Of a DNA stretch of 32,884 nucleotides, positions 4,498 to 32,882 are shown piece after piece; within the stretch, counting starts at the first letter, position 1; every line of letters begins with the position of its first letter. This DNA is from a virus. A program made the translations under genes and the position numbers. The notes beneath the pieces were generated by a model. That model had not been told where the DNA came from. It searched no databases and saw only the letters and a program-made list of their open reading frames with translations. Location of the stretch: positions 1 to 32,884 of the IMG/VR virus record IMGVR_UViG_3300025168_000338; one strand, written 5' to 3'.

Positions 4498-6152
4498 ACT
4501 TCCAACTCCTTAGCCTTAAACGCTGCCAATCTAATAGCCTCTCTAGCACTAGCAGTAATACTAGCGGCTAGAGTAACATTAGCCCAACCAAAACCTTGGA
4601 AAGCAACAATACCATAAAATGAAGCCATTAGTCTCTTAACAGCCATTTGATTATTGTGCCATTTCATATACTCACCGTTTGGCTTCCCTCTTGCCTCTTT
4701 CATTTTGGCTTTATAGTCATTCCTAAGTTCCTTCAGTTCTAATACTGCTTTGGGCAATAGTCCCATTTTATCAGTCTTAAAGTAAACCATTTCTTTATGG
4801 GAAACCTCACTAAAGTCTCTAGGAGTAAGAATATTAACTGCAAAATCTGTAGGTTCGTGGCTAATAGTTTCCCATGATATGTTTCTAGCAATCATCATAC
4901 TAGGATATAGACCTGCAAAATCAAAAGCAGCGACATTAAAATGTAATCCATTAGTCTTCTCACTTAGAGGGTCATAAATCATGGCACCTTGGTACTCTTG
5001 TCTCTTTTCTACTCTTTCTCCTGTAGGTGCTTTCCACCAAGCATTTCTCATAAAGTAAATAGAACCCATATGTGAAGCATAGAAACAAGCATCAAATGGT
5101 GCTTTTAGTAATCTTTGTAAAGAAACAATAGCATCACTACAATAGTTCTTTTCATCCAACTCTACAATCAGTTTTACATCTTTTATAGCATATGCAAGAT
5201 AAGTTTCAGTATCTTCTAACCAACCCCTGCGATAGAATTCATTAGTGTCGCTAAACTTCTTAGAAACCAATTTCTTTTTATTGAGAGCCAATTCTCCAAT
5301 ATAGTCAAGTGCTAAAGAAGGAAGCGTACCCCTTTGAGAATCGTTCCATTGTCGCTCAAAGGCCAAGTCTAAACTGAGGGTTATGCGCCCGCCTATGGGT
5401 TGTTCTATAGGATTGAATCCTTTGTCAGCATAAGCAAAAGTATGTCCTTTCTTGGCCTTCTTAACCCCTTTAATTGAGCCATAAGGGGACATTATGTTGG
5501 GGTTTAATCCTAATGAACAGGCTCTATCTAATAGTTTGGGGATATCTGCAAAGTTTCCAAACCATGCAATTAGCATATCGGGGTCTTTTACTACCATACA
5601 AGTCATAAAGTTTTCAAGCATATCTTTTTCATTATCAAAAACTAAATAATGAAATGAAGTGTATTGTTTTTGCTCAACAAACTTCTCTTGGGGAAACCAA
5701 GCCCATTGATAATATTGCTTATCGTAATTATCATACATTACAATAGTAGTAATCTTATCATGATGTTCTCCACCTTGTTGCCATTCCATATCCCAATACC
5801 ATTTTCTTAAATCATATTCCGGCATATCATCAATATTATCTACTGCATACCTAAAATGAAAGGGAACATCTGCTTCATATGTTCTTTTGAACATACCTTT
5901 TGCTCTACTAATATCAAATGATGATTCTACTACTACTTTCTTTAGTTTATTACCTTCAAGATTTACCCAATCACCACGGATATATTCAAAGTCCCTAGTT
6001 ATATATTTAGTAGCCTTGTAAGAAGTAGGTTCTCTAGAATCCTCATCTACATAAAAATAAGGAGCAAAGGAAACAGTTTCATGTTTCTTCTCCCCATTTT
6101 CTCTCCAAGAAAGATAAATCTTGTCCCCTACATTTGTTCTACTTATTATCAT
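4494..6152 (-). CDS. polB: Family B DNA polymerase, N-terminal half (exonuclease and palm motifs A and B)
   Basis: Replicative polymerase half of 552 residues. The 3'-5' exonuclease motifs are intact: Exo I WYWDMEWQ (near residue 120), Exo II region DPDMLIAWFGNFADIPKLL, Exo III YAIKD. Polymerase motif A is FDFAGLYPSMM and motif B is KRLMASFYG, with Ala where most family members have Asn. The reading frame stops 35 residues after motif B, just before motif C, which is encoded at 1987-2880. No intein splice-junction signature (N-terminal Cys/Ser block, C-terminal HN) is visible at the break, so two subunits are expected, as in the naturally split PolB of some methanogens. ATG at 6152 has GGTGATT upstream. 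Confidence 0.92.
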   Translation of the reverse strand: MIISRTNVGDKIYLSWRENGEKKHETVSFAPYFYVDEDSREPTSYKATKYITRDFEYIRGDWVNLEGNKLKKVVVESSFDISRAKGMFKRTYEADVPFHFRYAVDNIDDMPEYDLRKWYWDMEWQQGGEHHDKITTIVMYDNYDKQYYQWAWFPQEKFVEQKQYTSFHYLVFDNEKDMLENFMTCMVVKDPDMLIAWFGNFADIPKLLDRACSLGLNPNIMSPYGSIKGVKKAKKGHTFAYADKGFNPIEQPIGGRITLSLDLAFERQWNDSQRGTLPSLALDYIGELALNKKKLVSKKFSDTNEFYRRGWLEDTETYLAYAIKDVKLIVELDEKNYCSDAIVSLQRLLKAPFDACFYASHMGSIYFMRNAWWKAPTGERVEKRQEYQGAMIYDPLSEKTNGLHFNVAAFDFAGLYPSMMIARNISWETISHEPTDFAVNILTPRDFSEVSHKEMVYFKTDKMGLLPKAVLELKELRNDYKAKMKEARGKPNGEYMKWHNNQMAVKRLMASFYGIVAFQGFGWANVTLAASITASAREAIRLAAFKAKELEV

Positions 6153-6944
6153 CTAATCACCGCTAACAAAGGGTGCCTTCAATAGAATTCTATCTATGGC
6201 CACCAACAATAATGGGAATTCATCTTTCATGTATATGTTTACCAATTGGTCTTTTTTGAAGAACTTGTGAATAGGACTAGAAAATTCTAATGTGGCCCCA
6301 CTGTCTCCTAATCTAAACAAAGGAGAAATAATCTCTTCATATTTGTTTGAAGCGTTTTGTCTTGAAGATACTTCTAGACAATTGGCATATGGTTCTTCAT
6401 TTGTTTTATGGAAATCAAACTTATACACGCCAGTTTTAACTAATTCACAAGTCTTTAAGGTTTCATTCAACTGTTCTTGAGTCAAGGTGAAACCTACTTC
6501 AAATTTAGACTTGCCAAAATTAAAAAGAACATTAGGATTTGCTTGATAATTGATATGTGTTAGCATCCCCTTTAATGTATCTAAAGCATCTTGATTAGGA
6601 TGGTTTACAATCAAAGGAACTGATGCCTTCTTTCTATTGCTAGTAATTGTCATAGAATCAGCGCACTCGACAACTACATCATCTGCAAAAGAGGTCAAGT
6701 AAGGAATTATCATAGTTACATCAATAACACATTCACCATTAGTTTCTCCCCGTACTGCCAAGGATATCTTGACACAAAAAGTAGTATCACCATTCCAAAT
6801 CTCTAGTTGGTTATCTGTTAATGAAAATCTAGCATAATCCCCAAGGCTAGTGTTCCCAAAACCACTATTAGTTGTTGATTTACCCTTAACTTGGATACTT
6901 TCTACTGCTTCTTTTAGTGTTTTACTATCTACTGTAAATTTCAT
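6153..6944 (-). CDS. pcn: PCNA-like sliding clamp
   Basis: Processivity clamp of 263 residues, close to the usual 245-250 of archaeal PCNA. N-terminus KFTVDSKTLKEAVESI matches the first clamp helix; internal strand patterns and the C-terminal region ending RILLKAPFVSGD fit the fold. Start chosen at ATG 6944: it overlaps the upstream stop as ATGA and has GAGGGA upstream; a longer version beginning 12 residues earlier lacks these. Likely clients visible in the window are the polymerase C-half and the ATPase at 11269-12138, both with C-terminal PIP-like boxes. Confidence 0.85.
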   Translation of the reverse strand: MKFTVDSKTLKEAVESIQVKGKSTTNSGFGNTSLGDYARFSLTDNQLEIWNGDTTFCVKISLAVRGETNGECVIDVTMIIPYLTSFADDVVVECADSMTITSNRKKASVPLIVNHPNQDALDTLKGMLTHINYQANPNVLFNFGKSKFEVGFTLTQEQLNETLKTCELVKTGVYKFDFHKTNEEPYANCLEVSSRQNASNKYEEIISPLFRLGDSGATLEFSSPIHKFFKKDQLVNIYMKDEFPLLLVAIDRILLKAPFVSGD

Positions 6945-7759
6945 ATTGTTCCCTCTCTTAATTCTTTTATTCCATTCCATTCTACTTTACCACTACCAAC
7001 TACTAGAGTTTCCCAAGTAGTTCCCACTAGGGAAGTATTTGTTTTACTACTAGTAAGAGTGGCTTTGTATGCTACATCGCCCTTCTTTAGTATTCTTTTA
7101 GTGCTAATAATTTGGTGTAAAAAGTCTCCCCAATTATGCCAATTGGGTTTTGTTCCTATTACTTCACCAGTGGCACCGTAGTCTGCTTTAGCATGAGTAA
7201 TGTAAATTTGGTCACAATTTAGATTCTTACACATAGCCAATAAAGAATAAAACGGGGCGTTTCTTTTGCCCCACTCGAACTTCATTTTTTGTGGCTTACC
7301 AATTTTAGAACTTCCTGTAACATGAAGTGTACAACAGTCTAGCCATTTATCCACACCGTCGAAAACAAAAAGAACATCTTCTCCCTGTTCAATCTTTTCT
7401 TTGACAAACAAAACAAAGTCTTCGGAATTTGCTTCCGACTTTTGTATGTCTAATTCACCATTTTCATTTCTTACTTCCGGATTCCATAGCGTAATTCTAT
7501 CAGCACATTTATGATTCTGTCTCCATGTTGGCTCACAACCATCATCCCAATCTAAAACATAAACTTGTTTTTCGGGGAAGTCTAAGGCTAATCCACTCTT
7601 TACTGTTTTAGGTTCTCCCCAAACTCCACAAACTAAGCGACTGTTTCTCTTTAGTCTAACTTCTGTTTGGGACTTAAGTTTGTCTCTAAACGCTTCTACT
7701 CTTCTGTTATTTCCTGCTTTTTCTATCATTTCTTTATTTATATTATTTGTTAATCCCAT
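6941..7759 (-). CDS. RecA-like P-loop ATPase (Sak4-type recombination protein)
   Basis: Of 272 residues. Walker A is GEPKTVKSGLAL and Walker B is VLFVFDGVDKW; ITHAKAD and GTKPNWHNW follow in the positions expected of phage Sak4/RecA-core ATPases, which help anneal or exchange single-stranded DNA. No RadA N-terminal HhH domain is present. ATG at 7759 has AGGTGAT directly upstream. It overlaps the PCNA start. Alternative: a RadB-like or generic nucleotide-binding phage protein. Confidence 0.75.
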   Translation of the reverse strand: MGLTNNINKEMIEKAGNNRRVEAFRDKLKSQTEVRLKRNSRLVCGVWGEPKTVKSGLALDFPEKQVYVLDWDDGCEPTWRQNHKCADRITLWNPEVRNENGELDIQKSEANSEDFVLFVKEKIEQGEDVLFVFDGVDKWLDCCTLHVTGSSKIGKPQKMKFEWGKRNAPFYSLLAMCKNLNCDQIYITHAKADYGATGEVIGTKPNWHNWGDFLHQIISTKRILKKGDVAYKATLTSSKTNTSLVGTTWETLVVGSGKVEWNGIKELREGTI

Positions 7760-7764
7760 ATATA

Positions 7765-8238
7765 TCACCTATACCTTTTCCATATTTCTATCATTTCATT
7801 TATTTCTTCTTTGTCATTTAACCATACCTTTACGAACTTATTTCCAGTATGTAGTTTCACCATATAATCTAGGCTTTCTTCATCCTGTCTCCAAGTTAAG
7901 AACTCTATGGCTGCCAAATCTGCTGCCCAAGTTCTATCTTTCGTTAGTATTCCATCTTCAAGAGAAAGATTAATTCTTCTGTTTTTTACTTGAAAGTTAG
8001 CATTTGAACTTTCTCTCCATTCTACAGGAGGTTCAACCTTTCTATTTTTAAAAGAATCTTTTAATCTTTCTAAGTCGTTCTTAGACATATCTTGTGTAAC
8101 TAAGTCATGGTCTTTTATGAAGTGAATTTTTACTTCATAAACTCCATCTTCAATATGACCCCATGAAATGTGGGTTACACAATTAATATCTGTAATTGCT
8201 CTGTCTGTTTCTATATAATTTTTATCTATTTTTAACAT
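7765..8238 (-). CDS. 157-residue unknown protein
   Basis: Beta-rich sequence with aromatic residues (VTHISWGHIEDGVYEVKIHF; FLTWRQDEESLDYMVKLHTG) but no motif I can name. Start ATG at 8238 follows GAGGAATTAAT, an ideal ribosome binding site; the longer frame upstream has no better start. It sits between the SSB-like gene and the RecA-like ATPase, so a recombination or replication accessory role is possible. Confidence 0.75.
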   Translation of the reverse strand: MLKIDKNYIETDRAITDINCVTHISWGHIEDGVYEVKIHFIKDHDLVTQDMSKNDLERLKDSFKNRKVEPPVEWRESSNANFQVKNRRINLSLEDGILTKDRTWAADLAAIEFLTWRQDEESLDYMVKLHTGNKFVKVWLNDKEEINEMIEIWKRYR

Positions 8239-8345
8239 ATTAATTCCTCTTAAGGAAAGGCTTCGCACCTAGTCGAGTATCAATTGCTTCCGCAAGTTCA
8301 TACTTACACTTGCTAATAAAGGGCTTATCACCCTAGGAAATTTAA

Positions 8346-9572
8346 TCAAAACCAATCAAAGTTAGACTCCACTGGTTGAGATACTTCTACTACCGAACCC
8401 TGTCTATCGACACAATATAGCCCGGAAACATTTATTGTAGCGGGTTGTATTCCTTCGTCATTTGTAGATTGACTAGTTCTGCCTACAATAATAACACTAG
8501 AGCCTATACCAAAGTCTAGATTTAGATGTTCCGGAATCCAACAAGTTGTTGTTCCCGAACCACTCTCATAATCTAGTTCAGCATCTAAATCAGTTAGATT
8601 TATGATTCTATTGCCGTTAGAGGTAGGTGTCATATTCATGTTACAAACTGTACCATCAGTAATGATGAATTTTTCCTTAGGAGGTAATCCTTGTCTTACT
8701 ATATGTTCCTTGTCAGTATCTACCAAAGGTATCAAATGAGATTTGAAATCATTCTTTAGACATTCTTCAAAACTAAATGCTGACATATCACGGTGAAGGT
8801 CATCTTCCGGATTCATTTCACTGTTTAAACTTAAACTATTAAGTGTTAATTCCTTAGCACCATATATATCAGTTCCGTTGTCATTAGCAACACAAAGGAA
8901 ATGCACCCATTCAAAGGTATTAGGGGAAAAACCTACACCGCCTTTACCCTTGTAAGAGAAATAATAAGGTTTCATTTCCCCTACGCCCAAAGAGCCGTAG
9001 AATACTCCATTCCTTCTCATTACTTCAGCAGGTAAGGGTCTACCATAATTAGAATTAATATCGCCACTTAGATAAGACTCAGTAGAGTCTAATGGAATAT
9101 AGATTCTACCATCTTCTAAAGTAACTGCTCCTTCCGGTAATTCCGATATCACCTTTTCGCCGTATGTACCCTTATGGTATCTAGATACAGTATATTTGCC
9201 TAATGCATTTTCTACCGCTACTGCGACAATGCCTTTTTCTAAAGCACCATCTTCATCTCTTAGGTATTCTTCTTTTGCTTTCATTCTGTTCCAAGCCATA
9301 GCATCTCTAGGTGTATCTAAAGAAACAAAGAAACCAAATGCAGATTTGTAGAAAGAATCATTTGACCCTTTTGTATCATTTTTTTCTGCGTTATCATTTT
9401 GGCTTCTTCTAGCATTAGCAACAAAGTTTCGCCAAACGCCCTTAGCAATAGGGTTTGTTGGCTCTATACCATTTTGTTCACATATCTCTATGTATTTTGC
9501 TTCTGCTTCTTCCTCGCTCATACCTATGTACTGTGCGCTTTTCGCTATTTCATTCTTCATGTCTTCGTTCAT
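8346..9572 (-). CDS. Probable single-stranded DNA-binding protein (RPA/OB-fold type)
   Basis: Of 408 residues. The N-terminal 60 residues are helical, then a low-complexity linker (RRSQNDNAEKNDTKGSND), then a long beta-rich region. The C-terminal third (IINLTDLDAELDY, then CWIPEHLNLDFGIGSSVIIVGRTS) has the strand-turn-glycine pattern of an OB fold. The extreme C-terminus VESNFDWF is an acidic aromatic tip like those by which SSB proteins recruit replication partners. Position between RFC and the Sak4-like gene agrees. The assignment rests on architecture, not on a diagnostic motif. A 12-codon frame (ATG at 9610) ends in an ATGA overlap with its start. Confidence 0.6.
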   Translation of the reverse strand: MNEDMKNEIAKSAQYIGMSEEEAEAKYIEICEQNGIEPTNPIAKGVWRNFVANARRSQNDNAEKNDTKGSNDSFYKSAFGFFVSLDTPRDAMAWNRMKAKEEYLRDEDGALEKGIVAVAVENALGKYTVSRYHKGTYGEKVISELPEGAVTLEDGRIYIPLDSTESYLSGDINSNYGRPLPAEVMRRNGVFYGSLGVGEMKPYYFSYKGKGGVGFSPNTFEWVHFLCVANDNGTDIYGAKELTLNSLSLNSEMNPEDDLHRDMSAFSFEECLKNDFKSHLIPLVDTDKEHIVRQGLPPKEKFIITDGTVCNMNMTPTSNGNRIINLTDLDAELDYESGSGTTTCWIPEHLNLDFGIGSSVIIVGRTSQSTNDEGIQPATINVSGLYCVDRQGSVVEVSQPVESNFDWF

Positions 9573-27496: not shown

Positions 27497-27518
27497 GAAT
27501 AACGCACCACCGTTATTC
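27497..27518 (-). terminator. Terminator hairpin of the 27513-27980 gene
   Basis: GAATAACG pairs perfectly with CGTTATTC around a six-base loop and overlaps the stop codon. On the minus strand a run rich in T (27456-27475) follows about 25 bases later, as archaeal terminators need. Confidence 0.6.
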
Positions 27519-27980
27519 TGTCGTAGTTAGTTGAAATTCAAAATTTCCATCCCACTCGCCGTCTTTATATCTTTTAGCGAGAGCATTTCTGCTTCTTTTA
27601 CCAACCGAATGAGCATAGTCTTCAGCGTTAGCATATTCTCCTCCACCGGATTTGATATGTTTACGCAAAACCTTTGGTATGATAGGATTTGAATTATAAT
27701 AGTCTAATGCACTTTGCTCTACTATGGCAACAGCCTTGTCAATAGTAACTCTCACAAAGGCAGGTACTGAGGACTTCTGCCCTCTTTTGAATGGTGTCCC
27801 ATCTCTTCCTTTCAATAGAGCCTTCAAAGCACCTAAAGCGGCAACTCTTTCGCTTGGATTATTATCACCAATCTGTAGATTCAGTTTGACAACTTGTGCC
27901 AATCCACCATCTAGTGTTTCATCTGCTGCTAAATATTCCCTTACTTCTATTGCTAAACTCTGCCATTCTATTTCTTCCAT
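27513..27980 (-). CDS. Diverged third member of the right-arm paralogous family (155 residues), leaderless
   Basis: Shares the layout of the proteins at 29337 and 30835: a helical N-terminus, a GRDGTPFKRGQKS segment opposite their ARRGRES, and YKDGEWDGN near the end opposite KEGRWDG. Function unknown. The TATA box at 28003-28017 is about 26 bases upstream of ATG 27980, so the transcript is probably leaderless; the frame's earlier ATG (27998) would lie before the predicted start site. Encoded on the opposite strand to its paralogues and not flanked by the ACCATATGGT repeat. Confidence 0.72.
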   Translation of the reverse strand: MEEIEWQSLAIEVREYLAADETLDGGLAQVVKLNLQIGDNNPSERVAALGALKALLKGRDGTPFKRGQKSSVPAFVRVTIDKAVAIVEQSALDYYNSNPIIPKVLRKHIKSGGGEYANAEDYAHSVGKRSRNALAKRYKDGEWDGNFEFQLTTTE

Positions 27981-28002
27981 GTTATACTCATAAATCATCC
28001 CA

Positions 28003-28529: not shown

Positions 28530-28563
28530 ACCATATGGTCATGAAACTTTGTGACGAGTGACC
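28530..28563. repeat. ACCATATGGT repeat copy 1
   Basis: Palindrome 28530-28539; stem GGTCA (28537-28541) pairs with TGACC (28559-28563); CTTTG at 28547 lies in the loop. No CAAAG on the left. Confidence 0.8.
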
Positions 28564-28615
28564 CTAGAGCCACCCTATTTAATTTTAGGAGGCGGGGCTT
28601 CTCAGGAGTTATCGT

Positions 28616-28631
28616 CGCTTAACCCTAAGCG
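28616..28631 (+). terminator. Terminator-like hairpin
   Basis: CGCTTA and TAAGCG pair perfectly around ACCC; GGGGTAATTTTTC follows, giving a short T run. No gene precedes it on the + strand, so it may end a transcript from the origin-like region. Confidence 0.4.
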
Positions 28632-28695
28632 GGGTAATTTTTCATTCCCGTATGTTCATTCTATTCAAACTCGTTTCGATACTGCCCCATGAATA

Positions 28696-28941
28696 TTAAC
28701 CAAATATATCATCAAATACTGTTCGTTTTCTGCCTAGCGGTTTCATGTCGCTAGGTCTGTCACGGCAAGAAACACAAATATCTTTGAAATCAGTTAAAGG
28801 GTTTGCTGTGTTTCTGTATTTTTCAGTAAATAGCCGAATATGAATTTGATAGCCTGCATGAGTACCCTTGAATTTATCACATACATAGCACCTCTTTGTT
28901 TCTATTTCTTCTTCCCAATGAATTTCGTCTTCTCTAGTCAT
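28696..28941 (-). CDS. 81-residue zinc-knuckle protein
   Basis: CYVCDKFKGTHAGYQIH and a later ICVSCRDRP give a probable zinc site; the C-terminus GRKRTVFDDIFG is basic then aromatic/acidic. ATG 28941 has GGAAGG upstream. Unknown function. Confidence 0.7.
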   Translation of the reverse strand: MTREDEIHWEEEIETKRCYVCDKFKGTHAGYQIHIRLFTEKYRNTANPLTDFKDICVSCRDRPSDMKPLGRKRTVFDDIFG

Positions 28942-29056
28942 TCTTTTTCCTTCCTTTTATACAAATCTTACAATGTTTCAAATCATGCCTATGGTCTGTT
29001 CTAGAACATTCAAGTGATACAATGTTAATGAGTTTATTCTTCAGTGTAACCGTCAA
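28934..29056 (-). CDS. Possible 40-residue zinc-binding miniprotein, TTG start
   Basis: The frame fills the gap between its neighbours and ends in an eight-base overlap with the next ATG. It contains ECSRTDHRHDLKHCKIC, a plausible Cys/His metal site, and a basic tail. The proposed TTG 29056 lies within the end of the upstream gene and has only GGAG nine bases upstream, so the start is uncertain. Confidence 0.42.
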   Translation of the reverse strand: MTVTLKNKLINIVSLECSRTDHRHDLKHCKICIKGRKKND

Positions 29057-29180
29057 ACCAACCGTCTCCTCTTGTTTCATCATCTTGACAATGGGCTTGC
29101 GCTTCTTCAAGTGTTAATCCCGTTTGAATTGTCTTTGTTTCTTCCCCTTGTCTAAATCTTATTATTTTATAGGTCTTCAT
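29034..29180 (-). CDS. 48-residue phage-type small protein
   Basis: MKTYKIIRFRQGEETKTIQT with GLTLEEAQAHCQDDETRGDG and WFDGYTEE is a small family common in phages and their hosts, function unknown. ATG 29180 fits the family's usual N-terminus; a TTG/ATG 13 residues earlier is less likely. Divergent from the 29337 gene across repeat copy 2. Confidence 0.75.
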   Translation of the reverse strand: MKTYKIIRFRQGEETKTIQTGLTLEEAQAHCQDDETRGDGWFDGYTEE

Positions 29181-29216
29181 GGTTAAATAAAATCGTTCAG
29201 TATTGGGGTATTGCAT

Positions 29217-29267
29217 CAAAGATTACATTACCATATGGTAAGAACTACTTTGTTTGGTCTTACCATA
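29217..29267. repeat. ACCATATGGT repeat copy 2
   Basis: CAAAG 29217, palindrome 29230-29239, CTTTG 29248; stem of ten perfect pairs TATGGTAAGA (29234-29243) with TCTTACCATA (29258-29267). Lies between divergent genes. Confidence 0.85.
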
Positions 29268-29336
29268 TACACCTACCTAGAGTATTAATGACTTCAAGGG
29301 CTAAACAGGAGTCACACATCTAAAAAGGTGAATACT

Positions 29337-29852
29337 ATGAAAATGAATAATTGGATAATGAATACAAATAAGGTCAGGACTTGGGCTGAATCCCAAGCAC
29401 CTTGTGATGAGGTAGCAGCAATTATGCTATCTTTGACACTAGGTGATAGCGCATCAAGCGATGAATTAAGAAGTACATATTGGACAGCAATCCGTTCAAT
29501 CGGTTCTACTCAAGAAGGTTTTCCAGCCGCCCGTCGTGGTCGAGAAAGCAATCTCACAGAAGAACAACAGATTACCGTGGATGCTGTGAATATGGGACTA
29601 GAGAATGCTTTTGCGTCAATCCCTACTGAATATCAAGAACTACTACTGTCTGTGATTGTACCTCACGGAAGAACTGGTGGGGTCTATTCAGACTTTACCG
29701 CACTATCAAACAACTACAAGAAAGCAGGAAACAGTTACATGATGAAAGCAATCAAAGAAGGAAGATGGGATGGAACAACCACCAATAAGAAAGGTGTTCC
29801 ACAAATAACCCCAACAGTCGTCAAAGCCGACGAAGGAGAAGAAGAAGAGTGA
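29337..29852 (+). CDS. Right-arm paralogous family member A (171 residues)
   Basis: Shares with the 30835 protein DELRSTYWTAIRSIGS (near identical), FPAARRGRES, a PHGRTGG motif and KEGRWDG, with an acidic EGEEEE tail. I know no function; the conserved arginine/glycine motifs suggest nucleic-acid or phosphate binding. ATG 29337 has AAAAAGGTGAATACT upstream; a GTG nine bases earlier is part of that site. Followed by two hairpins (29859-29876 and 29889-29928) and preceded by repeat copy 2. Confidence 0.85.
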   Translation: MKMNNWIMNTNKVRTWAESQAPCDEVAAIMLSLTLGDSASSDELRSTYWTAIRSIGSTQEGFPAARRGRESNLTEEQQITVDAVNMGLENAFASIPTEYQELLLSVIVPHGRTGGVYSDFTALSNNYKKAGNSYMMKAIKEGRWDGTTTNKKGVPQITPTVVKADEGEEEE

Positions 29853-29888
29853 GGCTCAAGGTTTAGCCCTTGAGTCGCCACCATTCAT

Positions 29889-29928
29889 GGGGCAGGTATT
29901 AGTAAACAACCCTACTAATATCTGCCTC
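29889..29928 (+). terminator. Strong terminator after family member A
   Basis: A 16-pair stem (two G-U) starting GGGGCAGGTATTAGTA around an eight-base loop, followed by CCCC and ATTTATTTTA. A shorter CTCAAGG/CCTTGAG hairpin lies just before it. Confidence 0.72.
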
Positions 29929-29954
29929 CCCCATTTATTTTAGCGGGGTGAAAG

Positions 29955-29985
29955 CAAAGCACCACCATATGGTAAGGTGTCTTTG
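29955..29985. repeat. ACCATATGGT repeat copy 3
   Basis: CAAAG 29955, palindrome 29964-29973, CTTTG 29981; here a nested CACC/GGTG pair surrounds the palindrome instead of a clear right-hand stem. Confidence 0.75.
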
Positions 29986-30021
29986 ACGGTGAACCCCAAT
30001 ATGAACTGAGTTAGATTTGGT

Positions 30022-30237
30022 ATGTTAAACACAAACACATTAGTAGGATATGTAAGAATGACCAATGCAGGTGGACAAATCAAAGTTTCAATCAATGTTA
30101 AGGCATTTGAAGATTGTAAAACCTATACAACAGCCGATGGGGAAGTATATGTCCCACTGATTATATCAGCAAATGCTCTAAACAAAGTACAAGAAGGAGA
30201 AAGAGTAGTAACAACTATCTTTCAACATGTGGATTAA
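30022..30237 (+). CDS. 71-residue beta-rich unknown protein
   Basis: Strands such as LVGYVRMTNAGGQIKVSINV and GEVYVPLIISA, then EGERVVTTIFQHVD. Not recognised, but residue pattern is strongly protein-like. ATG 30022 lacks a ribosome binding site and lies 48 bases after repeat copy 3, so a leaderless or short-leader transcript is likely. It shares a unit with the next gene, 11 bases away. Confidence 0.7.
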   Translation: MLNTNTLVGYVRMTNAGGQIKVSINVKAFEDCKTYTTADGEVYVPLIISANALNKVQEGERVVTTIFQHVD

Positions 30238-30248
30238 GGTTGATTAAA

Positions 30249-30494
30249 ATGAAAGTAATAAAAGAATTTGGAAACACCATACACAATGATGGGACTATTG
30301 CCTTGAAGACAAGATATGTTTTTGAGGATGTAGTGTCAATGATGCTATATTTCAAGGATGAAGTTTGGGACGGTAGACCACCTAGCGACTTAAATGATTG
30401 GCAGGTTAGAAGAGATGAATTGACCATAACCTGTACAACCTATGTTAAAGCACTAGACCATTATGATTCAATAATAGGAGAAGAAGAGGAATAA
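30249..30494 (+). CDS. 81-residue unknown protein
   Basis: KVIKEFGNTIHNDGTIALKT and a central VSMMLYFKDEVWDG, ending IGEEEE. ATG 30249 follows AAGGTTGATTAAA. Second gene of the only two-gene unit in the right arm. Unknown function. Confidence 0.68.
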   Translation: MKVIKEFGNTIHNDGTIALKTRYVFEDVVSMMLYFKDEVWDGRPPSDLNDWQVRRDELTITCTTYVKALDHYDSIIGEEEE

Positions 30495-30834
30495 ATTCCA
30501 ATGGCTATTAGTGGCCATAACCCCATTGAGAAATGAAGGCGAAAGTCAAGTAACACAATGTGTAATTCGGTAGAATATACATGATAAGGCAAGGTAGAGA
30601 ATACTAGTTAATTTCTGTCTATCCCTTTGATTTAAGAATCGGCGTGACTAGGTGACTTGAATTAGTAGCCGGATTTTCTCACATGGGGTTTACATTTCAT
30701 TTACAAAGTCTACAACCATATGGTTGGTATGGCTTTGCCCTTGCCTTGATACCAACCCTATACTGATGCGCTCGTAATCTATTGCTTGTGTGAGTAGTTT
30801 TGGAAACATTACTATTTTTTTGAGGTGAATAATT
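30495..30834. other. 340-base spacer with hairpin and repeat copy 4
   Basis: No convincing gene on either strand. A CAATGG/CCATTG hairpin (30499-30528) with an alternative inner ATGGC/GCCAT pairing follows the 30249 gene and may end its transcript. Bases 30530-30700 show nothing I can name. Repeat copy 4 lies at 30704-30757, and GAGGTGAATAATT is the ribosome binding site for 30835. Confidence 0.5.
30704..30757. repeat. ACCATATGGT repeat copy 4
   Basis: CAAAG 30704, palindrome 30715-30724, CTTTG 30733; stem of nine perfect pairs GGTTGGTAT (30722-30730) with ATACCAACC (30749-30757). Confidence 0.85.
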
Positions 30835-31341
30835 ATGAAGATAGAAAACTGGAATAAGAATATTGGAGAAGTCAGTAACTGGCTAAATCTAGAGGATAGA
30901 GGCGATGAGGGTCAAGCGATAACATTATCAATTACTCTCGGAAATAACTGTAATAACGACGATTTGCGTTCAACATATTGGACAGCCATTCGTTCTATTG
31001 GGAGCATTTTTGATGATTTCCCAAAAGCAAGGAGAGGTCGAGAATCGGCATTACCCGACGAAATGGAAGCAAGTGCCACTTCTGTAATGAATGCGGTTTA
31101 TTCTGCCTTTGTTTCAATTACTAACCCCCAAATCATTTTGGCAACAATACTACCACATGGGAGAACTGGCGGAGCATACAAAGATATGGATGCAATTGCT
31201 AAAGAATATGCAGCAAAAGCATACAGAAATCTAGTGACTGGATATAAAGAAGGTCGTTGGACAGGTGAAATGGATGGCAATGTGCCATTAATGACCCCAC
31301 CTCCGGTTAAAGCCGAAATGGAGGTAACGGAAGAAGAGTGA
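30835..31341 (+). CDS. Right-arm paralogous family member B (168 residues)
   Basis: Paralogue of 29337-29852: DDLRSTYWTAIRSIGSIF, FPKARRGRESAL, LPHGRTGGAY and YKEGRWTGE align without large gaps, and the tail is again acidic (TEEE). The N-terminus keeps the pattern M-x-x-x-N-W. ATG 30835 has GAGGTGA upstream. Flanked by repeat copies 4 and 5 and followed by a hairpin at 31346. Function unknown. Confidence 0.85.
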   Translation: MKIENWNKNIGEVSNWLNLEDRGDEGQAITLSITLGNNCNNDDLRSTYWTAIRSIGSIFDDFPKARRGRESALPDEMEASATSVMNAVYSAFVSITNPQIILATILPHGRTGGAYKDMDAIAKEYAAKAYRNLVTGYKEGRWTGEMDGNVPLMTPPPVKAEMEVTEEE

Positions 31342-31345
31342 TGTT

Positions 31346-31385
31346 GAAGAAACTACTCGCCAAGCACCCTTAACGGGGTTTCTTC
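31346..31385 (+). terminator. Hairpin after family member B
   Basis: GAAGAAAC (31346-31353) pairs perfectly with GTTTCTTC (31378-31385) around 24 bases. Weak T run; terminator or transcript-end structure. Confidence 0.5.
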
Positions 31386-31394
31386 TACGAATGG

Positions 31395-31435
31395 CAAAGC
31401 CAACCATATGGTCATGAAACTTTGGGTAAATGGCC
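31395..31435. repeat. ACCATATGGT repeat copy 5
   Basis: CAAAG 31395, palindrome 31403-31412, CTTTG 31420; stem GGTCAT (31410-31415) with ATGGCC (31430-31435), one G-U pair. Confidence 0.8.
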
Positions 31436-31442
31436 TCACGGC

Positions 31443-31673
31443 CTATTCTTCTACCTCCTCTTTAGCATATTCTTCTTCACAGGTGCAATAATACCATTCA
31501 TACAAAATAACCATATCTTGTAGTTCTTCATCATAATATTGTTCTCTATGGATTTCTTTTTCTAAAATGTGATTACATTTAGGATGGTGGTCTAAACCTT
31601 CATTATCCGAATAATGATGAGCCTTATCACCATTAAACTTCGCTCTACATATACCGCAACTACAAAACGCCAT
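31443..31673 (-). CDS. 76-residue Cys/His-rich protein
   Basis: CSCGICRAKF at the start, HHYSDNEGLDHHPKC in the middle and YYCTCEEEY near the end: probably two zinc ions. Acidic C-terminus. The only minus-strand gene inside the repeat-separated part. A TTATAA box at 31688-31694 on the minus strand lies about 20 bases before ATG 31673, suggesting a leaderless transcript; the same box could serve the + gene. Confidence 0.7.
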   Translation of the reverse strand: MAFCSCGICRAKFNGDKAHHYSDNEGLDHHPKCNHILEKEIHREQYYDEELQDMVILYEWYYCTCEEEYAKEEVEE

Positions 31674-31710
31674 ACCATTTGTATTATCTTATAATCAATA
31701 CTAGGTTGGG

Positions 31711-31750
31711 CAAAGCCAACCATATGGTAATGGAACTTTGTGGTATTACC
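31711..31750. repeat. ACCATATGGT repeat copy 6
   Basis: CAAAG 31711, palindrome 31719-31728, CTTTG 31736; stem GGTAAT (31726-31731) with ATTACC (31745-31750). It overlaps the likely start codon of the next gene. Confidence 0.82.
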
Positions 31751-32113
31751 GTAAGTAATGCAGATATAAGGTTAGATATGTCAAGGATTAAAGATATAAA
31801 GGAAGATAAAGATGTGAATAAACTGTTTGGTATGCTATTCGATGAATTTGGTAGTGGTAGTATTAACCACTTAAGAATGCTATTCGACCATTTAAGCATG
31901 CTCGGAGTGGGCTATGATGGCAGATTAGAAAAGAGTGGCCAAATTGGTGTATTAGACCGAGATAATATGATTATGATTCAAAAGATACTAAACAACGGCG
32001 AACTGTTGAATGTATTGGTTAGAGCATGGTACTATCGTGTAGATGTGACCAAAGTAAGTAACTTAGAAGTCGGACTACTACTAGAGGAGAAGGTTATACT
32101 TGAAGAGGAGTGA
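31724..32113 (+). CDS. 129-residue unknown protein starting inside repeat copy 6
   Basis: Helical protein (DVNKLFGMLFDEFGSGSINH; LLNVLVRAWYYRVDVTK) with an acidic end VILEEE. Two ATGs (31724, 31730) lie within the repeat; a later ATG at 31778 would avoid it. A TTATAAT box at 31689-31695 is 30-35 bases upstream, so a leaderless mRNA is plausible. Not recognised. Confidence 0.68.
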   Translation: MVMELCGITVSNADIRLDMSRIKDIKEDKDVNKLFGMLFDEFGSGSINHLRMLFDHLSMLGVGYDGRLEKSGQIGVLDRDNMIMIQKILNNGELLNVLVRAWYYRVDVTKVSNLEVGLLLEEKVILEEE

Positions 32114-32132
32114 GTAATACCTCCCCGTAATC

Positions 32133-32160
32133 CCTATATCGGCATTTTGCCGTATATAGG
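32133..32160 (+). terminator. Terminator-like hairpin
   Basis: CCTATATCGGCA pairs with TGCCGTATATAGG around TTT with one bulged base; it follows the 31724 gene by 20 bases. The T run after it is short. Confidence 0.6.
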
Positions 32161-32173
32161 TAGGGTTTATCGG

Positions 32174-32212
32174 CAAAGCCTAACCATATGGTTGTGGTCT
32201 TTGTTCACAACC
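32174..32212. repeat. ACCATATGGT repeat copy 7
   Basis: CAAAG 32174, palindrome 32183-32192, CTTTG 32199; stem of seven perfect pairs GGTTGTG (32190-32196) with CACAACC (32206-32212). Seven bases before the next ATG. Confidence 0.85.
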
Positions 32213-32218
32213 TAGTAT

Positions 32219-32530
32219 ATGAGTAAAAATACTATTACCATGCGAAAAATAACACAAGATGCAATAAGAGCCTTTTATAATCGAACAAACTTCAAAAGAG
32301 GTAATACAAGAGTTGAAGTCAATCAAGCCAACGAATCAAGGCTTATACTTCATGGCCATACTATAGCCTATATGGATGAAACTAAAGTTTTGATTTCTAA
32401 CTGCGGGTATTTCACAAGCACCACAAAAGAACGCTTAAACGGCTTAAATGGTGTAAATATAGTTCAAAGAAATTTTGAATGGTTCTTAAATGGTGAATGG
32501 TGGACTGGTGAGAAAATTCTCATTGAATAG
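32219..32530 (+). CDS. Widespread small phage protein (103 residues)
   Basis: The order FKRGNTRVEV, RLILHGHTIAYMD, LISNCGYFTSTTKERLNGL, then NFEWFLNGEWWTG matches a family seen in many phages (GNT.V, LHGN.IA, CGW.T.TTKERLN, WYLNG..W). No function is known to me. ATG 32219 lies directly after repeat copy 7 with no ribosome binding site, which suggests regulation at or near the start. Confidence 0.82.
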   Translation: MSKNTITMRKITQDAIRAFYNRTNFKRGNTRVEVNQANESRLILHGHTIAYMDETKVLISNCGYFTSTTKERLNGLNGVNIVQRNFEWFLNGEWWTGEKILIE

Positions 32531-32538
32531 GCTTCTGC

Positions 32539-32549
32539 CCCCTTCGGGG
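32539..32549 (+). terminator. Short GC hairpin after 32219-32530
   Basis: CCCC-TTC-GGGG hairpin nine bases after the stop codon; small but very stable. No T run. Confidence 0.45.
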
Positions 32550-32555
32550 TACACC

Positions 32556-32574
32556 CAAAGTATTACCATATGGT
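32556..32574. repeat. ACCATATGGT repeat copy 8 (partial)
   Basis: CAAAG 32556 and palindrome 32565-32574, but no CTTTG to the right; ATTAC/GTAAT bases surround the palindrome instead. Confidence 0.7.
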
Positions 32575-32738
32575 AGTGTAATGGCAATTGAGGACATGCG
32601 ATGACAATTCAGTGTGCATAATTAGAGAATGTTGAACAGGGGCATTGTTTAGGAAAGATGTAGGCTTGACAATAAAACATTGAACAGTTGCGTAATGCCT
32701 TTTTTATTGATTTATTATGCGCTATAAACAATCAATTC

Positions 32739-32882
32739 CTAACCTTCAGAATAATAGTCCTCTATGCATTTTGCATATTCTAATCTACAACCATATGCTT
32801 TGTATTCCAAATTTTTTATTTTATATGCATTTAAAACATATCATTTTAATGCCCTAAAGTAAACAAAAAACTCTTTATTCAT
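32739..32882 (-). pseudogene. Open frame with one in-frame TGA at the right edge
   Basis: From ATG 32882 the frame reads 13 codons, a TGA (32841-32843) and then 33 protein-like codons (NLEYKAYGCRLEYAKCIEDY) to TAG. It may be a broken gene, a downstream gene with a non-ATG start, or a gene that continues past the window edge. AT content is high throughout. Confidence 0.3.

Follow-up and report, generated by a model that had tools for sequence, protein, structure and literature searches.

The window analysed here, the whole 32,884-base virus record IMGVR_UViG_3300025168_000338 of IMG/VR, carries toward its right end eight exact copies of a 10-base palindrome, ACCATATGGT, at 28530, 29230, 29964, 30715, 31403, 31719, 32183, and 32565. 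The units between palindromes, here and in related viruses, are mostly single-gene cassettes, and we put at roughly 0.7 the probability that the region is a magrovirus gene-cassette array, in which cassettes are shuffled, lost, and swapped at palindromic joints flanked by hairpins. Magroviruses are tailed viruses linked to Poseidoniales archaea. Family matches among the proteins of the window include PolB, an RFC-like AAA protein, an ATP-dependent DNA ligase, a Cpn60/TCP-1 chaperonin, and a PD-(D/E)XK nuclease; a match to the TFIIB zinc ribbon is weak. The virus-encoded genes that mark Magrovirales (PolB, clamp loader, DNA ligase, and chaperonin) are all present, and the gene content, with replisome and chaperonin genes as in PMC10768690, fits a magrovirus-like fragment.

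A fixed gene, F1core (27513..27998, minus strand, 161 amino acids), adjoins the proximal end of the array and has relatives in 45 viral loci. Junction 1 (28530..28563), the proximal array end, consists of the palindrome and a right arm, GGTCA/TGACC with CTTTG; it has no left arm, as is usual at an array edge. The first cassette (28540..29229, minus strand) contains genes at 28696-28941 and 29034-29219 in the list of open reading frames (ORFs). Junction 2 (29207..29267) has a left arm with CAAAG, the palindrome at 29230-29239, and a right arm with a 10-bp stem (z -3.3), and is followed by a plus-strand cassette (29240..29963) with an F1 paralogue at 29328-29852. Junction 3 (29947..29995) reads GGT..CAAAG..ACC ATAT GGT..CTTTG..ACC, with the palindrome at 29964-29973; its arm stems are weak (GGT/ACC only, plus mismatches), and this copy folds into a single long hairpin. 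Two small genes (30022-30237 and 30240-30494) occupy the next plus-strand cassette (29974..30714). At Junction 4 (30704..30757), CAAAG, the palindrome (30715-30724), and a right arm GGTTGGTAT/ATACCAACC precede a plus-strand cassette (30725..31402) with a second F1 paralogue, at 30835-31341.

Genes converge on Junction 5 (31395..31435), which has CAAAG, the palindrome at 31403-31412, and a right arm GGTCAT/ATGGCC; the minus-strand cassette beyond it (31413..31718) encodes a 76-amino-acid Cys-rich protein (31443-31673). Junction 6 (31704..31750), with divergent genes on either side, has a left arm GGTTGG/CCAACC, the palindrome at 31719-31728, and a right arm GGTAAT/ATTACC. The plus-strand cassette that follows (31729..32182) contains one gene, with its end at 32113; as listed, the ORF (31679-32113) extends back through Junction 6, and the gene probably starts near 31780. 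Junction 7 (32163..32212) consists of a left arm with CAAAG, the palindrome at 32183-32192, and a right arm GGTTGTG/CACAACC. In the last cassette (32193..32564, plus strand) lies a gene of the Kyano_Gp96 family at 32219-32530 (PF23790, E 2.7e-18; phrog_554, E 3.4e-22). Junction 8 (32556..32574) has CAAAG and the palindrome (32565-32574) and no right arm. Joints in the window thus occupy tandem, divergent, and convergent gene gaps. A spacer of 215 bp with no ORF of at least 50 amino acids (32575..32789) leads to the distal array end site (32781..32822), ACCATATG-CTTTG at 32790-32802 and then a T-rich tract. The spacer is about 78-80% identical in three related loci (L162-L164) and 70% in a fourth (L179); a leader or an RNA gene is conceivable there.

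The first-pass annotation had placed all copies of the palindrome between 28530 and 32574, and no exact copy lies elsewhere in the window. Matches with one mismatch number three (12599, 13877, and 32790); the total of 11 compares with 0.97 +- 0.97 expected, and none of 100 shuffles got to 11. The match at 32790 (ACCATATGCTTTG and then a T tract) is a ninth, variant copy that the annotation overlooked, and it constitutes the array's conserved distal end. CAAAG does lie 3-8 bases to the left of seven of the eight copies (28530 is without it), and CTTTG does lie to the right of seven, though at 6-8 bases rather than the 7-9 given (6 at 32183; 32565 is without it). All six stems quoted there are found as written, GGTCAT/ATGGCC with one T-G pair. 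As single-stranded DNA the eight copies fold modestly, with z from +0.3 to -3.3 and below -2 in four.

Compensatory change in the stems had been claimed for the right half alone. The window copies by themselves are no proof of structure; covariation across many viruses is, and it is found in both arms. The element consists of two hairpins, GGT..CAAAG..ACC and GGT..CTTTG..ACC, separated by ATAT, and its stems covary on the left and on the right. In 32 fetched array regions plus the window there are 210 distinct junctions, and 283 of their 420 arms have CTTTG within 30 nucleotides (nt). Beyond GGT/ACC, the stems of these 283 arms average 2.09 bp with cognate sides, compared with 0.83 +- 0.06 when the two sides come from different arms. 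A larger collection, of 623 junctions, yielded 966 representative arms, separated from one another by more than 7 mismatches in 32 bases. (This set, like the 283 and 307 oriented cassettes and the 610 junction contexts considered below, comes from fetched viral loci with enough palindromes, whether magrovirus or other.) CTTTG lies within 22 nt in 703 of them, 548 of which are closed by ACC within 14. The Watson-Crick fractions of stem pairs 1, 2, and 3 are 0.71, 0.53, and 0.46, where 0.35, 0.26, and 0.31 are expected; the first pair is Watson-Crick in 391 of 547 arms. Forty-two equally spaced arms gave 46 double-change cells against 24.9 +- 3.9, and 25 arms of different spacing gave 19 against 9.5 +- 2.4; in neither case did any of 500 shuffles reach the observed value, the shuffles leaving kinship among arms in place and slid controls being likewise lower than observed. 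The count of pairs changed on both sides was no different from shuffles (468 and 472 of 500).

How widespread are such joints? Scanning IMG/VR for the pattern gave at least 120 stretches, many of them multi-copy (the viral pattern scans and the list of distal-site matches give lower bounds). Thirty-four loci with two or more copies were chosen, representing 31 IMG/VR records besides the window. These carry 2 to 14 copies each, always grouped in arrays, with one array per record except for two in G011; the largest, in G030, has up to 13 joints. F1core used as bait retrieved 45 viral loci, overlapping with the 31 records, and ACCATATGGT copies lie upstream in 41 of them. Three of the other four are truncated near the gene, and the fourth is L195, discussed below. 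Neither the array region of the window nor two F1 proteins had a match in 50,697 phage records. Two records call for separate comment. In G011 (IMGVR_UViG_3300021958_000021, 184,733 bp) the two arrays are not the same and lie about 94 kb apart, and the record may fuse two related genomes. In G021 the array (68,984-72,223) coincides with the minimum of cumulative GC skew near 71 kb, and the first and last long ORFs (154-549 and 96,344-96,739; L206 and L210) are 98% identical, suggesting terminal redundancy.

A host origin of the element was considered and set aside: the two-arm pattern found 19 stretches in a species-genome collection, 18 of them single sites and one an array, in NZTP01000027.1. 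None of the 18 single sites is titled Poseidoniales (the Poseidoniales content of the collection is unchecked). NZTP01000027.1 (L211), labelled an Altibacter metagenome-assembled genome, has five two-arm joints in its array and is probably of viral origin, placed in a bacterial bin.

The units are small: 463 distinct units of 200-1500 bp have a median length of 624 bp. As read from the sequences, a cassette is mostly one small gene with inverted hairpin arms (ATGGT-stem-CTTTG-stem-ACC) at both ends, and the palindrome, ACC-ATAT-GGT, is two such ends abutting. About half of the cassettes carry a TATA-like site just within the 5'-side arm, and some a UUCG-loop hairpin on the 3' side. The counts behind these statements cover cassettes with one clear gene direction. 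Among 307 of these, arms are present upstream of the gene in 274 and downstream in 267, and a TATA-like site follows 112 of 219 closed upstream arms as against 22 of 195 closed downstream arms. Since arms are about equally frequent on both sides and TATA is mostly upstream, the arms mark cassette ends irrespective of gene direction. Stem length varies little with direction as well (mean 1.70 bp upstream and 1.46 bp downstream in 283 units). The UUCG-loop hairpin, CCCTTCGGG, lies downstream in 41 of the 307 and upstream in none. The Kyano_Gp96 family (F8) occurs at ten loci and is flanked by palindromes in nine; it takes its name from cyanophages, a hint of gene flow between bacterial phages and archaeal viruses.

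If the elements let cassettes come and go, as the first-pass annotation had supposed, then gene content between them ought to differ among relatives, and it does. Between viruses 86-95% identical, the alignments show whole cassettes gained, lost, moved, or occasionally inverted in clean events, with the switch falling inside the palindrome and each arm staying with its cassette. Three loci with 93-95% identity beside the array, L162, L163, and L164, have the cassette orders 4-7-6-8, 4-7-5-(6+8), and 4-5-6-7-8, the palindrome at joint 6/8 of L163 being mutated. A 387-bp cassette in L177 is unmatched in L178, as is a 692-bp cassette of L187 in L183. L165 differs from L167 by one inverted cassette and one 385-bp cassette, and from L173 by the exchange of two cassettes in position. 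Positions 7097-7798 of L136 match 5306-6006 of L139, elsewhere in the array, palindrome to palindrome. In the relative L146, window positions 28591-28945 are matched in the same direction and 28936-29180 in inverted direction at a different place. At the joints, the left arm of one cassette meets the right arm of another in the palindrome.

For counts of cassette order and of array edges, near-identical contigs (L170, L181, L189, L203, and the window copy) and arrays having fewer than four palindromes were dropped. The remaining 37 arrays comprise 223 cassettes. Two or more cassettes are common to both members of 220 array pairs, 128 of which show a move; of 658 shared cassette pairs, 141 stand in a different order and 9 are inverted, although these counts rest on boundaries defined by the palindromes and on non-independent pairs, which weighs against our interpretation. 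At 109 ends where the neighbour has changed, a cassette's own 30 nt are 0.84 identical and the neighbour's 0.65 (unrelated arms, 0.60), the cassette's own being higher in 98; the comparison covers shared cassettes at least 75% identical and in the same direction, inverted or less alike ones being left out. Lateral transfer is suggested by thirty blocks inside arrays, in 25 locus pairs, whose identity exceeds that of the genome around them by 6-21 points, e.g., 92.6% versus 71.8% (blocks were selected at an excess of at least 6 points; some records, such as L136 and L167, are represented twice, and some pairs and blocks are therefore repeats). Some cassettes evidently have a history different from that of the genome around them. 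The same array is kept in the near-identical pairs L161/window, L168/L170, L188/L189, and L202/L203, some of which may share samples; this argues against assembly noise.

The arrays also have distinctive edges. CTTTG is present in 413 of 446 inner arms; among outer arms, it is present in 14 of 37 at the proximal edge, next to F1core, and in 4 of 31 at the distal edge. The site conserved on the far side is the ACCATATGCTTTG with T-rich tract seen in the window at 32790: 21 distinct sites are listed, L186 and L195 apart, all outside the run of symmetric copies, and BLAST matched the distal end stretch over about 37-86 nt in at least dozens of array loci. In L186, the segment 5637-5960 has the ends ACCATATG-CTTTG and CAAAG-CATATGGT, where the relative L197 has one plain joint, with a shared CATATG resembling a target duplication.

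Several other observations count against a cassette array or limit what may be asked of it. Turnover affects the left flank, outside the array, as well (collinear coverage is 0.46-1.00 there, 0.19-1.00 in the array, and 0.78-1.00 in the right flank). The array is not the sole plastic region; its special feature is the shuffling of whole units at one structured joint. Of 186 in-array alignment ends, 32 have a palindrome no more than 20 nt away in each of the two sequences (such positions make up 0.073 per sequence); because homology fades, most ends fall away from palindromes despite the excess there. Some transferred blocks end at least 40 nt short of a palindrome, so arms can be replaced too. 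The 9 inversions are below what free joining of symmetric ends would lead one to expect, and three of the eight window copies, with z about 0, fold no better than shuffles. L195, a 93-kb record, is an awkward case. It carries F1core, beside which, at 5025-8884, six one-sided ACCATATGCTTTGG copies replace the symmetric array; both the CAAAG arm and an exact symmetric copy are missing, and the one-sided ACCATATGCTTTG copies precede same-strand genes, beside a TATA-like box. Either L195 is a derivative that has become frozen, or the motif might act as a promoter in all of these viruses. Finally, no recombinase was identified, and the movement of cassettes is read from sequence comparison rather than observed in culture.

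Tyrosine recombinases (PF00589) were found in 0 of 21 records and 14 of 14 controls, a test that reaches neither host enzymes, nor missing parts of fragments, nor very divergent enzymes; serine recombinases (resolvase domain PF00239) were found in 0 of 22 records and 10 of 14 control genomes. A Pfam scan of 91 of the 93 G021 proteins of at least 100 amino acids gave no recombinase among the matches listed (25 of 62 families for one of three groups). According to published profiles of two magrovirus families, one encodes no integrase (PMC12999244), and in the other neither integrase nor transposase is identifiable (PMC10768690). An ERCC4 (XPF-type) nuclease is present in 19 of 22 records, the three misses being the shortest; PMC10160649 already places this gene in magroviruses.

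An uncharacterised protein family, F1, is tied to the arrays by association only: it occurs in all but one of 33 array regions (32; the one without it is truncated by the end of its contig). Its profile has 60 members, 42 within the array span and 18 outside. F1core has no match in Pfam, PHROGs, or PADLOC, and the idea that F1 is a known enzyme was dropped, as it matched no families, PDB sequences, or phage records. Its one significant match is to an unnamed viral protein. The predicted model (predicted local distance difference test, pLDDT, 90.5; predicted template modelling score, pTM, 0.63) has no PDB match at E <= 0.001, and a second structure comparison gave only helical matches of middling quality (best Z 7.7), most of them to residues 1-70.

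Perhaps the arms are recognised as folded DNA, which would extrude from the duplex or arise on single strands in the course of replication; strand exchange, or cutting and rejoining, would then take place within the palindrome. With identical joints, any cassette could follow any other, and rapid turnover of accessory genes would be the likely benefit. More speculatively, a virus protein may act, perhaps of the F1 family, with the ERCC4/XPF-type nuclease and ATP-dependent DNA ligases as possible helpers. The full proposal, of virus-encoded, structure-guided cassette recombination unrelated to integrons, in which F1 recognises hairpin ends and joins them via the palindrome for exchange of accessory genes among marine archaeal viruses, is a tentative one, to which we give less than even odds.

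A passive mosaicism, to which we would also give a probability well short of one half, needs no dedicated enzyme: template switching or general homologous recombination would take place at the palindromes or at polymerase-stalling hairpins, and the hairpins would serve otherwise or just promote switching. The lack of recombinase matches just described is what one would then expect, replication and repair genes are plentiful, and, with the same 10 bp at all joints, breakpoints there are expected from homology alone. Cassette orientation is mostly kept, and the left flank turns over too. Passive exchange leaves unexplained why the arms are bound to cassettes and mostly missing at array edges, why the stems covary, and why there is a conserved fixed end site.

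A protein-binding role of the joint, the second of three roles suggested by the first-pass annotation, is kept as a rival on the basis of L195. Here ACCATATG..CTTTG would be bound by a transcription factor that activates array genes, symmetric copies would serve both sides, and turnover would be a by-product of shared control sites. The six ACCATATGCTTTGG copies of L195, upstream of same-strand genes and each followed by a TATA-like box, fit such a promoter or operator, as does the position of CTTTG in symmetric arrays, where on the 5' side of the gene it precedes TATA by a median of 13 nt. It is unlikely, however, as a general account: arms are equally common 3' of genes, where TATA is rare, the window joint at 31403 sits between convergent genes, and variable spacing with covarying stems is unusual for a duplex binding site.

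Regulatory RNA, another of the annotation's suggestions, fares worse and strikes us as quite improbable. Hairpins in transcripts could be processing sites, stability elements, or bidirectional terminators, and giant viruses do have hairpins at mRNA 3' ends. Stem pairs 2-4 tolerate G-T (208 versus about 238 expected) more than A-C (51 versus about 109), a wobble also compatible with one DNA strand. Because cassettes are mostly single-gene units rearranged by breaks inside the palindrome, the comparison points to DNA rather than to regulatory RNA. The symmetry of the arms, nearly independent of gene direction in strength, and the separate UUCG hairpin, downstream only, within cassettes some of which have promoter- and terminator-like signals of their own, placed on the sides one would expect, led us to reject a regulatory RNA or simple bidirectional terminator as the principal explanation; a search of the window at Rfam gathering thresholds gave no match to known regulatory RNA families, and a tRNA-like element was looked for and not found. 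It is the annotation's remaining suggestion, recombination sites between cassettes, that the rearrangements in relatives favour. Free ligation of cohesive palindromic ends, as from an NdeI-type cut at CATATG, was set aside, inversions being rare.

We found no description of these elements among the best literature matches or in a word search of PMC10160649; Philosof 2017 and Prabhu 2025 lay outside that scope, and an earlier mention is possible. The 10-mer itself occurs in 29 papers, and the titles of the 15 listed have no bearing on these elements. A cassette array with a distinctive structured joint, recurrent in viruses linked to abundant marine archaea, offers a testable route for fast gene exchange among uncultured viruses. 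The array may also serve as bait for early and anti-host genes, and it is a candidate for new recombination chemistry. Should the exchange prove passive, structured boundaries would still have been shown to organise viral mosaicism.

The nearest known system is the integron. Like integrons, the arrays are rows of single-gene cassettes that are gained, lost, and reordered at recombination sites of conserved structure and variable stems, albeit in a different layout. Integron attC sites are recognised as folded DNA hairpins (PMC11641012, PMC6393395), integrons occur in archaea (PMC9668308), and attC clusters are borne by phages (PMC9892861); attC clusters without a neighbouring integrase exist. 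In contrast to integrons, no tyrosine recombinase was found in the 21 records, and attC cores (RYYYAAC...GTTRRRY) occur in 3 of 610 junction contexts as against 3.45 in shuffles (a test of the core, not of the full attC model). Here two hairpins surround a symmetric palindrome, and part of the cassettes carry promoter-like and terminator-like signals. Integrons insert at the attI end; these arrays have conserved ends, yet the clear gains and losses are internal. The magrovirus array works like an integron and, by recombinase and attC cores, fails to belong among them. Shufflons and other invertible segments have several short repeated sites between which a site-specific recombinase inverts segments, but in magrovirus arrays inversion is rare and no such recombinase gene was found. 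Mitochondrial double-hairpin elements, paired adjacent hairpins in intergenic DNA, are proposed to be mobile by themselves, whereas here the hairpins are the ends of gene-bearing cassettes, which, except for the two arrays of G011, are gathered into a single array in each record. The morons of tailed phages are extra genes that have been inserted among others and bring a promoter and a terminator of their own, and boundary sequences are short conserved spots of recombination. The magrovirus arrays differ from both in being strings of units, with up to 13 joints in G030, that share one structured joint across many genomes.

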